Source of the DNA: Phycisphaerae bacterium
GTDB lineage: Bacteria > Planctomycetota > Phycisphaerae > UBA1845 > UTPLA1
NCBI GenBank assembly: GCA_023150615.1
Contig: JAKLKO010000015.1
Location: 1 to 64,000, forward strand
Reading direction: 5' to 3'
DNA: 64,000 bases
The translations under genes were made by a program, and so were the position numbers. Below the pieces are notes generated by a model that saw only the letters and a program-made list of their open reading frames with translations, made no database searches and had not been told where the DNA came from. Position 1 is the first letter of the stretch; every line of letters starts with the position of its first letter. Below, one piece after another: positions 16,291 through 31,656 of this stretch.

Positions 16291-16397
16291 TGACGGCGCG
16301 CGGCCGGCGGGGACGGCCAGGGGGCGTGGATGGCTTGCATCGCAGCGCGGCGTGCGTCAGAATCCCCGGCTCGATGCGAGTGAAACTTCGACCATCC

Positions 16398-16565
16398 ATG
16401 CAGCAGTTCGTCATCTGGTACCGCTACAAGAAGCCGGGGGACAAGGCGTTCGGCCCGGTGGTGCAGTACCGGCTGTACGCCCACGACATCGCCGAGGCCT
16501 GGGCCACGGCCCGGCAGTACCTCAACTACGAGGGCGTCGAGATCGTCGACGTCGTCCCGATTTAG
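16398..16565 (+). CDS. Small hypothetical protein
   Basis: A 55-residue soluble protein (MQQFVIWYRYKKPGDKAF at the start) with alternating strand-helix character and a DIAEAWATARQYL helix. The composition and clean start suggest a real gene: codon use is strongly GC3-biased like its neighbours. An in-frame ATG at 16374 would add eight residues; neither start has a strong ribosome site. No family recognised. It lies between the TPR operon and the ArsR regulator promoter. Confidence 0.55.
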   Translation: MQQFVIWYRYKKPGDKAFGPVVQYRLYAHDIAEAWATARQYLNYEGVEIVDVVPI

Positions 16566-16634
16566 CAGATCCGTGGGTTCGGCTGTGGAACGGGTCCGTG
16601 GTCTGGGGGCGGCGGATTTTTTTCCGCGATCGCC

Positions 16635-16662
16635 TTGACATATCATGAAATCATGATATATT
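16635..16662 (+). promoter_or_regulatory. Promoter with operator palindrome in its spacer; leaderless start
   Basis: TTGACA (16635-16640), a 16-base spacer, and TATATT (16657-16662) form a near-consensus promoter. A perfect 8-4-8 inverted repeat, ATATCATG-AAAT-CATGATAT (16640-16659), fills the spacer, so a bound dimer would block polymerase. The -10 box ends six bases before the regulator's ATG, predicting a leaderless mRNA and autoregulation by the ArsR-type protein. Confidence 0.75.
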
Positions 16663-16668
16663 GACAGT

Positions 16669-16977
16669 ATGAAGCCAATTCGACCCCGGCCCGACCCGCT
16701 GCCTTTCCCCGTGCTTCAGCGCGTCGCCGACGCTCTCCGCGTCCTGGCGCACCCGCGCCGCCTCCAGATCGTCGAACGACTCGCCGCGCAGAAGCTCGCC
16801 GTCGGACAGCTCGCAGCCCGACTGGACCTGTCCCATGCCGCGTGCAGCCAGCACCTGTCGCGCATGCGGGCCCAGGGGCTCTTGCGCGCGCGTCGCGAGG
16901 GCAAGACCGTCTACTACGAAGTCTGCGACCCCAATGCCATTAACGTCATTCAGTGCATCCGACGCCACGCGCGCTGA
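16669..16977 (+). CDS. ArsR-family transcriptional repressor (putative persulfide sensor)
   Basis: A 102-residue winged helix-turn-helix protein of the ArsR/SmtB family: ALRVLAHPRRLQIVERL helix, LAARLDLSHAACSQHLSRM recognition helix, and the RREGKTVYYEV beta-wing. It has three cysteines (59, 86, 96) and no ELCVC arsenic box. Repressors of this family with spaced thiols (BigR/SqrR type) sense persulfides through cysteine pairs, but their cysteine positions differ from these. The gene downstream encodes a persulfide-handling fusion enzyme 30 bp away, so sulfur sensing is a reasonable inference. The palindrome in its promoter suggests autorepression. Confidence 0.88.
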   Translation: MKPIRPRPDPLPFPVLQRVADALRVLAHPRRLQIVERLAAQKLAVGQLAARLDLSHAACSQHLSRMRAQGLLRARREGKTVYYEVCDPNAINVIQCIRRHAR

Positions 16978-17007
16978 CCTTGCCGCGGCGTCGAACGGAG
17001 ACCCGAC

Positions 17008-19494
17008 ATGACCCCGCCGCGAAAACTTGTCATCATCGGCGGCGTCGCCGGCGGCGCCACCGCCGCGGCCCGCGCCCGGCGGCTCTGCGAATCGGCCGAG
17101 ATCGTGGTTCTCGAACGCGGACCGTACCCGTCGTTCGCGAACTGCGGCATGCCGTATCACATCGGCGGCGAGATTGCCGACCGCGAGAAGCTGTTCCTGC
17201 AAACGCCCGCGTCGCTGAAGGCCCGGCACAATCTCGACGTCCGCGTCCGCAGCGAGGTCATCGTCATCGACCGCGCGGCGCGGCGGGTGACGGTTCGGCG
17301 GCTTGACGACGGTCGCGAGTACGCCGAGCCGTACGACAAGCTCATCATCTCCACCGGGGCGGCTCCGATCCGGCCGCCGCTGCCGGGCATCGACCATCCC
17401 GCGATCTTCTCGCTCCGGTCGATCCCCGACATGGATCGCATCCGCGCTGCGGCGGAGTCCGCGCGCGACGCGGTCGTCGTCGGAGGCGGGTTCATCGGCC
17501 TGGAAATGGCGGAGAACCTCCGTCGCCGCGGGCTGAACGTGCACGTCGTCGAGATGCTGGACCAGGTCATGCCGCCGCTCGACCGGGAAATGGCCGAGGC
17601 GATCCACGCACAACTGCGCCTTCACGGCGTCGCCCTGCGCTTGTCGAGCGCCGTCGAGTCGTTCGCCGATGCGGGTGGTCGCGTCGTCGCGCGGCTCAAG
17701 GGCGGCGAATCGATCGAAGCCGACCTGGTCGTGCTCGCGATCGGCGTGCGCCCGGAGTCGGCGCTGGCGAAGCAGGCCGGCCTCGACATCACGGAACGCG
17801 GCGCCATCCGCGTCGATGAGCACCTGCGAACAAGCGACCCGAACATCTACGCCGTCGGCGACGTGGTCGTGACGCGCGACGCGGTGACCGGCGGCGAGGC
17901 GTTCATTCCGCTCGCCGGGCCGGCGAATCGGCAGGGTCGAATCGCCGCCGACCACATTTTCGGCCGCGAGAGCCGATATCGCGGTTCGCAGGGTACGAGC
18001 ATTGTGCGGGTCTTCGACCTCGTCGTCGCCATGACCGGCGCGAGCGAGAAGACACTGCGCCGCGCGGGCCTCGCGTACGAAAAGGTCTACGTTCATCCGG
18101 CGCATCACGTCGGCTACTTTCCGGGCGCGACGCCGATGTCGATCAAGCTGCTGTTCGCCAAACCGGACGGCCGCGTGCTTGGCGCGCAGATCACCGGTCG
18201 CGAGGGCGTCGACAAGCGGATTGACGTACTTGCGACGGCGATCCAGGCCCGAATGACGGTCTTCGATCTCGAGGAAATGGAACTGGCCTACGCGCCGCAG
18301 TTCGGCGCGGCGAAGGATCCGATCAACATGGCCGGCTTCGTCGCGGCCAACGTTCTGCGCGGCGACGTGCGAATCGTACACGCGGACGCGCTGGACGGAG
18401 CCGTGCTGATCGATGTCCGCACGCCGGCCGAGCACGATGTGGGGGCGATCCCCGGCTCGACGCTGATCCCGATCGACGAACTGCGGGCGCGCATCGCGCA
18501 GGTGCCGCGCGACGGGCGCGTCGTCGTCTATTGCGCCGTTGGGCAGCGAGGCTACACCGCCGCGCGGATCCTCGCGCAGCTCGGCTACGACGTGGCGAAC
18601 CTGTCCGGGGGGTATCGCACCTACGTCGCCTATCATCCGCCGACGCGCGCAGCCAGCGCGGCGCCGACCCCGGCCGCACCGCCCTCGCCCGCCGCATCGA
18701 ACGCCGCGCCATCGTCGGCCGCGCCCGCGGCGTGCGCGCCGAGGCCGCAGGCGGGCGGATCGCCGTCGGCGACGGCCGAGCTGGACGTCCGCGGCTGTCA
18801 GTGTCCCGGTCCGATCGTGGCGATCCGCGAGCGGATCGACGGGCTGGCCGACGGGGACGTGCTGAGCGTCCGCGCGACCGATCCCGGATTCGCGGCCGAC
18901 GTGCCGGCCTGGTGCCGGCAGACGGGCCACGAGTTGGTCGAACTGCGGCCGGAGAACGGCCACACCCACGCCTGGATCCGCAAGCGTGCGGCGTCGCCGG
19001 ATCGAACGGCGCGGGCGGAGGCTCCGCGTGACAAGACGCTGATCGTCTTTTCGAGTGACCTCGATCGCGTCATGGCGGCGTTCATCATCGCGAACGGGGC
19101 GGCGGCGATGGGGCAGAAGGTGACGATGTTCTTCACGTTCTGGGGGCTGAACGTGCTGCGCCGCGCGGACGCGGTTTCGCGCGGCAAGCCGCTGCTCGAC
19201 CGACTGTTCGGATGGATGATGCCGCGCGGTCCGGCGCGGCTCGCGCTGTCGCGGATGAACATGGCGGGCCTCGGCACGGCGATGATGAAACACGTCATGC
19301 GCCGCAAGCAGGTCGAGCCGCTTGCGGCACTGATGGAGCGCGCGGTGCGGCAGGGCGTGCGGCTCGTGGCGTGCGCGATGTCGATGGATGTGATGGGGAT
19401 CCGGCGGGAGGAGTTGATCGACGGCGTGGAGCTGGGCGGGGTGGGCAGTTATCTGGACGCAACGGCGACGGCGAACGCGAATCTCTTTATCTGA
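17008..19494 (+). CDS. CoA-disulfide reductase fused to rhodanese, TusA and DsrE-like domains
   Basis: An 828-residue cytoplasmic fusion. Residues 1-445: FAD/NAD(P)H pyridine nucleotide-disulfide reductase of the CoA-disulfide reductase type, with GGVAGG for FAD, redox Cys46 in SFANCGMPY, a second Rossmann motif (VVVGGGFIGLEMAENL), and the C-terminal dimer domain. About 460-545: rhodanese with catalytic Cys in VVYCAVGQRG. Then an Ala/Pro linker. About 590-660: TusA-like domain with DVRGCQCPGP. About 670-828: DsrE2-like domain with FSSDLDRVMAAFIIANGAA and ACAMSMDVMGI. Related fusions reduce CoA persulfide or move sulfane sulfur between thiols; here the full relay is in one chain. GGAG lies seven bases before the ATG. 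Expression probably follows the ArsR promoter. Confidence 0.92.
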   Translation: MTPPRKLVIIGGVAGGATAAARARRLCESAEIVVLERGPYPSFANCGMPYHIGGEIADREKLFLQTPASLKARHNLDVRVRSEVIVIDRAARRVTVRRLDDGREYAEPYDKLIISTGAAPIRPPLPGIDHPAIFSLRSIPDMDRIRAAAESARDAVVVGGGFIGLEMAENLRRRGLNVHVVEMLDQVMPPLDREMAEAIHAQLRLHGVALRLSSAVESFADAGGRVVARLKGGESIEADLVVLAIGVRPESALAKQAGLDITERGAIRVDEHLRTSDPNIYAVGDVVVTRDAVTGGEAFIPLAGPANRQGRIAADHIFGRESRYRGSQGTSIVRVFDLVVAMTGASEKTLRRAGLAYEKVYVHPAHHVGYFPGATPMSIKLLFAKPDGRVLGAQITGREGVDKRIDVLATAIQARMTVFDLEEMELAYAPQFGAAKDPINMAGFVAANVLRGDVRIVHADALDGAVLIDVRTPAEHDVGAIPGSTLIPIDELRARIAQVPRDGRVVVYCAVGQRGYTAARILAQLGYDVANLSGGYRTYVAYHPPTRAASAAPTPAAPPSPAASNAAPSSAAPAACAPRPQAGGSPSATAELDVRGCQCPGPIVAIRERIDGLADGDVLSVRATDPGFAADVPAWCRQTGHELVELRPENGHTHAWIRKRAASPDRTARAEAPRDKTLIVFSSDLDRVMAAFIIANGAAAMGQKVTMFFTFWGLNVLRRADAVSRGKPLLDRLFGWMMPRGPARLALSRMNMAGLGTAMMKHVMRRKQVEPLAALMERAVRQGVRLVACAMSMDVMGIRREELIDGVELGGVGSYLDATATANANLFI

Positions 19495-19526
19495 TCGCGG
19501 CGGATGCCGTCGCGCCGGCCGCGGGG

Positions 19527-19532
19527 TATAAT
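19527..19532 (+). promoter_or_regulatory. -10 box of the RNase P RNA gene
   Basis: A perfect TATAAT six bases before the predicted RNA 5' end at about 19538-19540. No clear -35 hexamer is visible at the expected spacing; the box lies 33 bp after the stop of the fusion enzyme. Confidence 0.7.
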
Positions 19533-19537
19533 GACGG

Positions 19538-19963
19538 TGCAGAGCGGGCCAGACGGCCGCTCGACGCGCAGGCGTCGGGAGGAAAGTCCGAACTGGGCAG
19601 GGCACGGCGATGGCTAACGGCCACCGGCAGCGATGCCAGGGACAGTGCCACAGAGAATGAACCGCCGATGGGGTCGGCGTGCGGATCGATACACGTGATC
19701 GATCGGGCGACGACTCACAGGCAAGGGTGAAAAGGTGCGGTAAGAGCGCACCGCGCGGCCGGCGACGGCCGCGGCATGGCAAACCCCGCCGCCAGCAAGC
19801 CCAAATAGGCAGCGAATCCGACTTGAGCGGATGCGACGCGGCCCGCGTCGCGTGAGTTGCGGGTAGGGTGCTCGAGCCGGCGAGCAATCGCCGGCCCAGA
19901 TAGATGGCCGTCCGCGCCGGGCAACCGGCGTCGACAGAATTCGGCTTACCGGCCCGCTCTGCA
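19538..19963 (+). ncRNA. rnpB: RNase P RNA (bacterial type A)
   Basis: The catalytic RNA that matures tRNA 5' ends. Conserved elements occur in order: GAGGAAAGTCCGAACT, GGGCACGGCGATGGCTAACGGCC, GCCACAGAGAA, GTGAAAAGGTGCGGTAAGAG, CATGGCAAACCCC, GCAAGCCCAAATAGG, and the 3' GACAGAATTCGGCTTAC. The terminal helix P1 is a 13-bp perfect pairing of 19538-19550 with 19951-19963. The length of about 426 nucleotides fits a type A RNA with some enlarged peripheral helices. A short T run (19965-19969) follows P1 and may serve as terminator. Confidence 0.97.
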
Positions 19964-19969
19964 TTTTTG

Positions 19970-20532
19970 TTTCTCGCCGCGGGGGTGTTTTGCTGCATTA
20001 CGGGGATCGCCGTACCGTTGTTGTGGCTGGGGACTTGGGGACTCGGGATTCGACGAGATTCGGTGCTACGGCGAGGTGGAGCCGATTGGCGGCGCGCCGG
20101 TCGTGGGAGAGTGGATTGGGTTCGTCGGTCATGACGGCTTCAAAAGAAAGATGCTGAACAAGCTGAAAGAAGCTGAACGTTCCTTTCTGGCGGTGCGCGG
20201 GGCGGGTCCGCGCGGGGCGAATCGACGCGGGGAACGCTCGTGGCCAGAACGTCCGCCCCGATGCGGGCACGCCGATTCGATTCCGACGTGCAAGGTGTGA
20301 CCGGGGCGCACGGTGACGTCAGGCCAGCGCACAATCCCGATCAGCGTTTCGGGTCGAGGGATTGCGGAGTGTCGTTCGGCGATGGAGTCAGCGCGGGGTT
20401 TCGCGCTCGCGACGTCGGCTCGATGGGAGCATCGGCGTTTCGTCATCGGCTCGGCAGGGGCCTCGCCCTCCCAAGCGGGGACGTCGCCGGGCACGCTGTT
20501 GTGAATCCGGCCTTTCTCAACGGATCACGAAT
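19970..20532. other. Gene-free interval
   Basis: About 560 bp between rnpB and the PEP-CTERM gene. Reading frames here have irregular codon use and no recognisable domains. It contains direct GGGGACT repeats near 20035, a patch near 20140-20200 with lower GC in which GCTGAA recurs every 9-11 bases, and a repeat unit at 20448-20473. It may include decayed coding sequence, but nothing can be named. Confidence 0.5.
20448..20473 (+). repeat. REP-like 'GSAGASPS' repeat unit
   Basis: The segment reads GGCTCGGCAGGGGCCTCGCC then CTCCCA. Translated in one frame it gives GSAGASPS and on the other strand WEGEAPAEP. I recall this peptide pair recurring in spurious ORFs of planctomycete and other PVC genomes, where it marks a dispersed, partly palindromic intergenic element. 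Only one copy is seen in this window, so repetition cannot be shown here. Confidence 0.45.
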
Positions 20533-31165: not shown

Positions 31166-31656
31166 TCCATCCCCGTGGCGGTCGGCAGGTCGGGCTGCCG
31201 GCCGAGGACTTCCCAACCCGGTTCGAACAATCGCAAGTTCGCCTTGTCGAAGCCGTTACTGACAAGAAACTCGAACACCTCGTTGCTGGCCTCACAGTGG
31301 CCGCCGCCGCAGTAGATCACGATCAACCCATCGCGCGGGAGCGTCTGGAAGATGGTGTCGAGGTGCATTTCTTTTTCGGTGGATGGGATGTTGATTGCGC
31401 CGGCGAGGTGGCCGGCGGCGTACTCGTCAGACTTGCGGGCGTCGACGAAGGTGGCCGAAGCGCTCTGCACGTGCGTGCGGAGTTCATCGAGGCTCATCAT
31501 GACCGAGGCGCGGAGCTCGAGGTTCTCGCCTGGATTGGCGCTGACGTTCGGATCGCGCAGCCAGGGGAGCCGGTCGGGCCGCACGGCGTTGGCGTAGCCG
31601 GCGGCCGCGGTCGATACAACGAGCAGGACCAGCGCCTTTCGGGCGTTGTTCAGCAT
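31162..31656 (-). CDS. Exported rhodanese-like sulfurtransferase
   Basis: A 164-residue protein with an N-terminal membrane anchor or signal (ALVLLVVSTAAAGYANA) and a single rhodanese domain: FVDARKSDEYAAGHLAGAINIP and active-site loop YCGGGHCEASNEVFEFL with Cys116, plus a second Cys121 five residues on. Family members transfer sulfane sulfur or act as thiol carriers. The CxxxxC arrangement in the loop could allow a disulfide. It is sandwiched between a DUF1573 gene (40 bp upstream) and the coupled MauE-like gene, so a periplasmic thiol or sulfur relay is the likely theme. Confidence 0.88.
   Translation of the reverse strand: MLNNARKALVLLVVSTAAAGYANAVRPDRLPWLRDPNVSANPGENLELRASVMMSLDELRTHVQSASATFVDARKSDEYAAGHLAGAINIPSTEKEMHLDTIFQTLPRDGLIVIYCGGGHCEASNEVFEFLVSNGFDKANLRLFEPGWEVLGRQPDLPTATGME

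Follow-up and report, generated by a model that had tools for sequence, protein, structure and literature searches.

A putative autoregulated ArsR-persulfide reductase operon in a Phycisphaerae bacterium

The repressor gene, its promoter and the enzyme gene

The window, meaning the whole stretch of 64,000 nucleotides that was analysed, carries a short gene for an ArsR-type repressor and, with an ATG at 17008 that lies 30 bp past the repressor stop codon, a gene for an enzyme of 828 residues. The promoter with its putative operator and both genes lie where a preliminary description, made from the sequence alone, had placed them, and everything it had named in the enzyme, i.e., the four domains, Cys46 and the motif CQCPGP, was found. 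The features are as follows.

16635..16640, + strand: -35 box TTGACA (promoter scan)
16640..16659, no strand assigned: predicted operator palindrome ATATCATGA-AA-TCATGATAT in the -35/-10 spacer (kept in relatives)
16657..16662, + strand: -10 box TATATT with extended TG (promoter scan)
16669..16977, + strand: ArsR/SmtB-family repressor, 102 aa, probably leaderless (Pfam HTH_5, HTH_metalloreg, SqrR match, AF2 model)
16843..16845, + strand: Cys59 codon, recognition helix (in 13/45 subfamily members)
16924..16926, + strand: Cys86 codon (in 2/45 subfamily members only)
16954..16956, + strand: Cys96 codon, alpha5 (in 45/45 subfamily members)
16966..16968, + strand: His100 codon, one helical turn past Cys96 (in 36/42 ungapped)
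17008..19494, + strand: CDR-rhodanese-TusA-DsrE2 enzyme, 828 aa (Pfam, homologues)
17008..18336, + strand: FAD/NAD(P)H CoA-disulfide-reductase-like domain, Cys46 codon at 17143-17145 (Pfam, TIGR03385, PDB 3nta)
18400..18624, + strand: rhodanese domain, Cys509 codon at 18532-18534 (Pfam, alignment)
18778..18984, + strand: TusA domain, Cys599 codon at 18802-18804 (Pfam, alignment)
19030..19488, + strand: DsrE2 domain, Cys789 codon at 19372-19374 (Pfam, alignment)

The repressor matches Pfam HTH_5 (E=2e-10, 40.8 bits, cut-off 22) and NCBIfam HTH_metalloreg (81 bits, cut-off 55), and its AF2 model (pLDDT 95) shows the winged-helix fold of the ArsR/SmtB family (fold Z 16). CzrA and SmtB are among its best fold matches and superpose on it free of gaps (Z 15-16). 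By sequence, its nearest solved relative is SqrR (E=8e-17), while its score against the NCBIfam BigR equivalog is 58.1 bits against a cut-off of 155. A search of the accessible papers for the NCBIfam name TsoR found nothing.

A bacterial RNase P class A RNA is encoded on the + strand at 19541-19964, 47 bp past the enzyme stop codon, and the operon therefore most likely consists of two genes. Between TPR genes and the repressor gene lies an open frame of 55 codons (16398-16562, + strand) without a Pfam match. A second rhodanese domain is encoded at 31210-31491 on the - strand within an open frame of 264 codons.

Operator and gene neighbourhood of the repressor subfamily

The -35 and -10 boxes match the consensus at 11 of 12 bases across a spacer of 16 bp, and theirs is the single promoter-like match in 16300-20100, where 0.3 were expected. 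The preliminary description had a perfect palindrome filling this spacer. The two arms, 9 bp each, are indeed perfect; the central AA is not palindromic, and the element overlaps the last base of the -35 box and the first three bases of the -10 box. It occurs once in the window (0 expected in shuffles), and no second copy was found in the 4.1-Mb genome with up to 3 mismatches allowed. The ATG of the repressor gene stands 7 bp past the -10 box, making a leaderless start plausible.

The palindrome was compared with the regions upstream of 44 further ArsR genes of the subfamily, using dinucleotide shuffles as control. At least 13 of 16 palindrome positions were matched by 18 of the 44 regions (0.1 expected) and at least 11 of 16 by 33 (2.6 expected). 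The box TTGACA is common to most of the 45 subfamily promoters, and the arrangement TTGACA-16 bp-TATATT with TATCATGA-NN-TCATGATA in the spacer recurs in most of the 44 other members. In these relatives, the site mostly occupies the spacer between TTGACA-16-TATAAT-like boxes, and the gene starts 5-9 bp past the -10 box. Judged by this comparison, the predicted operator is real, and the recurring layout suggests that repressors putatively binding the leaderless promoter of their own gene are characteristic of the subfamily.

The proposal that repressor, operator and enzyme form one module was likewise supported by 17 genomes of the bacterium's own family: 8 encode both a close ArsR and a full-length fusion, and 9 encode neither. 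Across the subfamily, rhodanese, reductase or four-domain genes lie directly downstream in 29 of 45 members and a Sulf_transp gene in 4 further members; most members thus precede rhodanese, reductase or YeeE-type genes. A neighbourhood of sulfurtransferases or sulfur transporters, found here in 33/45 members, is also typical of known RSS sensors (PMC10509353), for which reason sulfane sulfur is the likeliest cue. Counted against a persulfide reading are members with the same operator in front of efflux genes: in L249 (with L101) and L234, a C96-type ArsR gene precedes genes for RND efflux (HlyD, ACR_tran) or outer-membrane efflux. Since the operator of L249 matches at 15/16 positions, the subfamily may not serve sulfur alone.

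Other arrangements were seen as well. In L244 and L245, an ArsR of the C59 clade and the operator stand before a gene for an AhpD-like carboxymuconolactone decarboxylase (CMD), assigned by Pfam for L088/L244 and by eye for L245. In L070 and L071 (Victivallis), the order is reversed and the ArsR gene directly follows the four-domain gene. Other ArsR proteins are encoded upstream of the four-domain genes of Riflebacteria and Firmicutes (L010, about 3521; L015 and L017, about 3687); their genes lie behind long perfect palindromes with arms of 17-20 bp, unlike the planctomycete operator.

The four-domain enzyme and its published relatives

Pfam matches to Pyr_redox_2 with its dimerisation domain, rhodanese, TusA and DrsE_2 are each far above cut-off. 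The reductase and rhodanese part of the fusion is close to solved structures, among them Shewanella Npsr (3nta, E=1.6e-185) and CoA-persulfide reductase (8a56). Like the Npsr/CoA-persulfide reductases (3nta, 3icr, 8a56), it combines an FAD-dependent reductase with a C-terminal rhodanese, and their catalytic cysteines correspond to C46 and C509 of the fusion; those proteins, however, lack TusA and DsrE2 domains. Among loci taken from genome collections, all 87 full-length proteins have the four domains in this order (one with an extra DsrE match); they come from Planctomycetota, Verrucomicrobia-related phyla, Firmicutes, Chloroflexi, Spirochaetes and others. A frame-shift suspected in the G011 fusion from two partial matches was ruled out, as the gene is one frame of 877 aa.

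The window's enzyme belongs to this four-domain family by its domain order and its four relay cysteines. All 83 aligned homologues have C46, C509 and C599; C789 is found in 82 of them and C636 in 67. Such conservation argues that the four-thiol chain is under selection, which agrees with the relay within one protein that had been proposed for it. In the structural model of the fusion, the linker before TusA (residues 548-585) is predicted to be disordered and the one before DsrE2 (665-670) is loose; the disordered linker would allow TusA to swing, as a moving carrier would need.

The TusA and DsrE2 domains of the fusion are the only matches to either in the nearly complete genome, and no YeeE/YedE transporter was found in it. 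The sole copies being housed in this enzyme would suit an outward flow, in which persulfide sulfur is fed via TusA and DsrE2 to biosynthetic acceptors and the reductase domain acts as an overflow. Yet the fusion to an NAD(P)H reductase and the control by a repressor argue for a role in stress or reduction, and the four-domain enzyme is absent from 9/17 family genomes, so we regard this flow as quite improbable.

The fusion is not a novelty, since its architecture has been published for two proteins. For Pcar_0429 of Pelobacter carbinolicus, an explicit persulfide relay was proposed in 2012; the protein was put forward as an S0 reductase, and no ArsR partner is described in the available part of that paper (PMC3543383). 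BF638R_0572 of Bacteroides fragilis, described in 2018, has the same domain order and nearly equal residue numbers, and its operon likewise has its own repressor, although of the MarR type (BmoR); the phenotype reported is sensitivity to diamide (PMC6158253). No other in vivo study of a four-domain homologue was found, and the concern of this one with diamide rather than persulfide, together with the MarR-type regulator, counts against a persulfide reading. Published persulfide biochemistry for a four-domain enzyme was not found in the literature. For the shorter EfCoAPR, the rhodanese cysteine is persulfidated in cells (PMC9405070), and the enzyme is under CstR control, unlike the ArsR-paired fusion.

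The protection against diamide that the B. fragilis homologue provides (PMC6158253) could also mean that the repressor is a general sensor of thiol oxidants (disulfide or peroxide) and that the operon maintains CoA disulfide redox balance rather than removing persulfide. By NCBIfam, the reductase domain is indeed nearest to CoA-disulfide reductases, scoring 477 bits against TIGR03385 (cut-off 579). Disulfide reduction, however, would have no need of three fused sulfur-transfer domains with invariant thiols, archaeal and Shewanella Npsr are without detectable CoA-disulfide activity (PMC7969121), and relatives of the regulator precede rhodanese and YeeE genes. Together, these points make a thiol-oxidant sensor improbable.

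Cysteine layout of the repressor and comparison with known sensors

The three cysteines of the repressor sit as the preliminary description had located them. In the AF2 model, C59 lies in the recognition helix alpha4 (residues 56-68), C86 just behind the second wing strand (80-85) and C96 in alpha5 (88-101). A sensor built from all three is not supported by the counts over 45 close, distinct subfamily members, as C86 (2/45) and C59 (13/45) are not conserved; the fixed element is C96 (45/45), not the three-cysteine set. C35 is likewise found in 13 of 45 members, and C35 and C59 never occur together (0/45). Elsewhere, the C59 position holds Ala, Val or Thr, and C59 could therefore be a small core residue; in G012, whose repressor is one of eight orthologues within the family that occur alongside the fusion, it is Thr, with operator and enzyme kept. 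In a wider ArsR set, C96 accompanies C22 and C52 (C52 is present in 66 of 73 C22 proteins), and in eleven proteins C96 is the sole cysteine, making the usual intraprotomer dithiol impossible there, a point that counts against a persulfide reading. A tree of 107 ArsR proteins over 90 columns, with the trait columns left out, groups the cysteine patterns into coherent clades with few changes, the clades being only partly resolved with so few columns.

The persulfide sensors SqrR, BigR and HlyU carry a cysteine pair in alpha2 and alpha5 (PMC10509353), and the preliminary description was right that the window's repressor differs from them. In the alignment with SqrR, the alpha2 cysteine of that protein stands opposite E36, and the one in alpha5 comes to lie at about residue 102 (Arg), six positions past C96. 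The alpha3 cysteines of classical As(III) ArsR and RexT are also missing, as alpha3 (45-51) has no Cys. A CmtR-type alpha4 ligand was considered for C59 and rejected because of a register misfit (2jsc match, 22-90 to 14-82): the CmtR ligand positions map to R65 and Q69, away from C59.

The position of Cys96 and His100 near the metal-binding helix of SmtB and CzrA also counts against a persulfide reading. The repressor could thus be a metal sensor, in which Cys96 and His100 of one alpha5, together with Asp87 from the partner subunit, coordinate a soft metal at the dimer interface, whereupon DNA is released. The gap-free superposition on the Zn sensors CzrA and SmtB, the strong conservation of C96-x3-H100 and the efflux genes behind L249 and L234 all fit. 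By that register, D87 and H100 would moreover take the places of two alpha5 zinc ligands out of four (D, H, H, E/H). The other two, however, are absent, as residue 89 is an Asn and the chain, with its last residue at 102, does not reach the fourth, and Cys96 is there instead. Asp stands at position 87 in only 12/45 members, and the neighbouring genes mostly concern sulfur transfer rather than metal export. A metal sensor is therefore unlikely, though the least unlikely of the alternatives weighed here. By the same register, an antiparallel alpha5 pair would place residues ~94-96 close to the two-fold axis, so that by model geometry either a bridge between C96 and C96' or a metal site made of C96 and H100 is plausible.

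On balance, the locus is probably an autoregulated two-gene operon for persulfide homeostasis, in which the ArsR protein senses sulfane sulfur via Cys96 and controls a persulfide reductase. The comparisons bear out its operator, gene pairing, conserved thiols and sulfur gene context. An ArsR dimer would bind the -35/-10 palindrome and obstruct RNA polymerase, so that both its own, putatively leaderless gene and the downstream enzyme gene would be silent. Once sulfane sulfur accumulates as persulfides or polysulfides, the invariant Cys96, perhaps activated by His100 and, in the clade of the window's ArsR, helped by Cys59, would become persulfidated or form a bridge, most probably close to the dimer interface or across it, whereupon the repressor would release DNA. 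The enzyme might then take up sulfane sulfur via the thiols of DsrE2 (C789), TusA (C599) and rhodanese (C509) and pass it to CoA and the flavin-site C46, releasing sulfide at the expense of NAD(P)H. The operon would be a compact and genetically isolated case, with one operator, one enzyme and the genome's only TusA and DsrE2.

More tentatively, and with the odds against it, it could be speculated that members of a distinct ArsR subfamily rely on one invariant thiol per subunit for sensing sulfane sulfur: Cys96, in alpha5 at the dimer interface, would form a Cys96-Cys96' bridge or be bridged to a clade-specific helper (Cys35, Cys59, or Cys22/Cys52). If so, the geometry would differ from the alpha2-alpha5 intraprotomer bridge and would be placed where metals act in SmtB and CzrA. 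Because the partner cysteine changes from clade to clade around a fixed thiol, mutation could directly address what the minimum is for a persulfide switch.

In comparison with known systems, the enzyme is of an already known type. The regulator has its nearest solved relatives among SqrR, BigR and HlyU, shares the ArsR fold and the sulfur gene context with them, and is probably a variant, differing in cysteine layout, of the ArsR repressors that respond to sulfane sulfur. Its subfamily looks like a second ArsR solution for reading sulfane sulfur.
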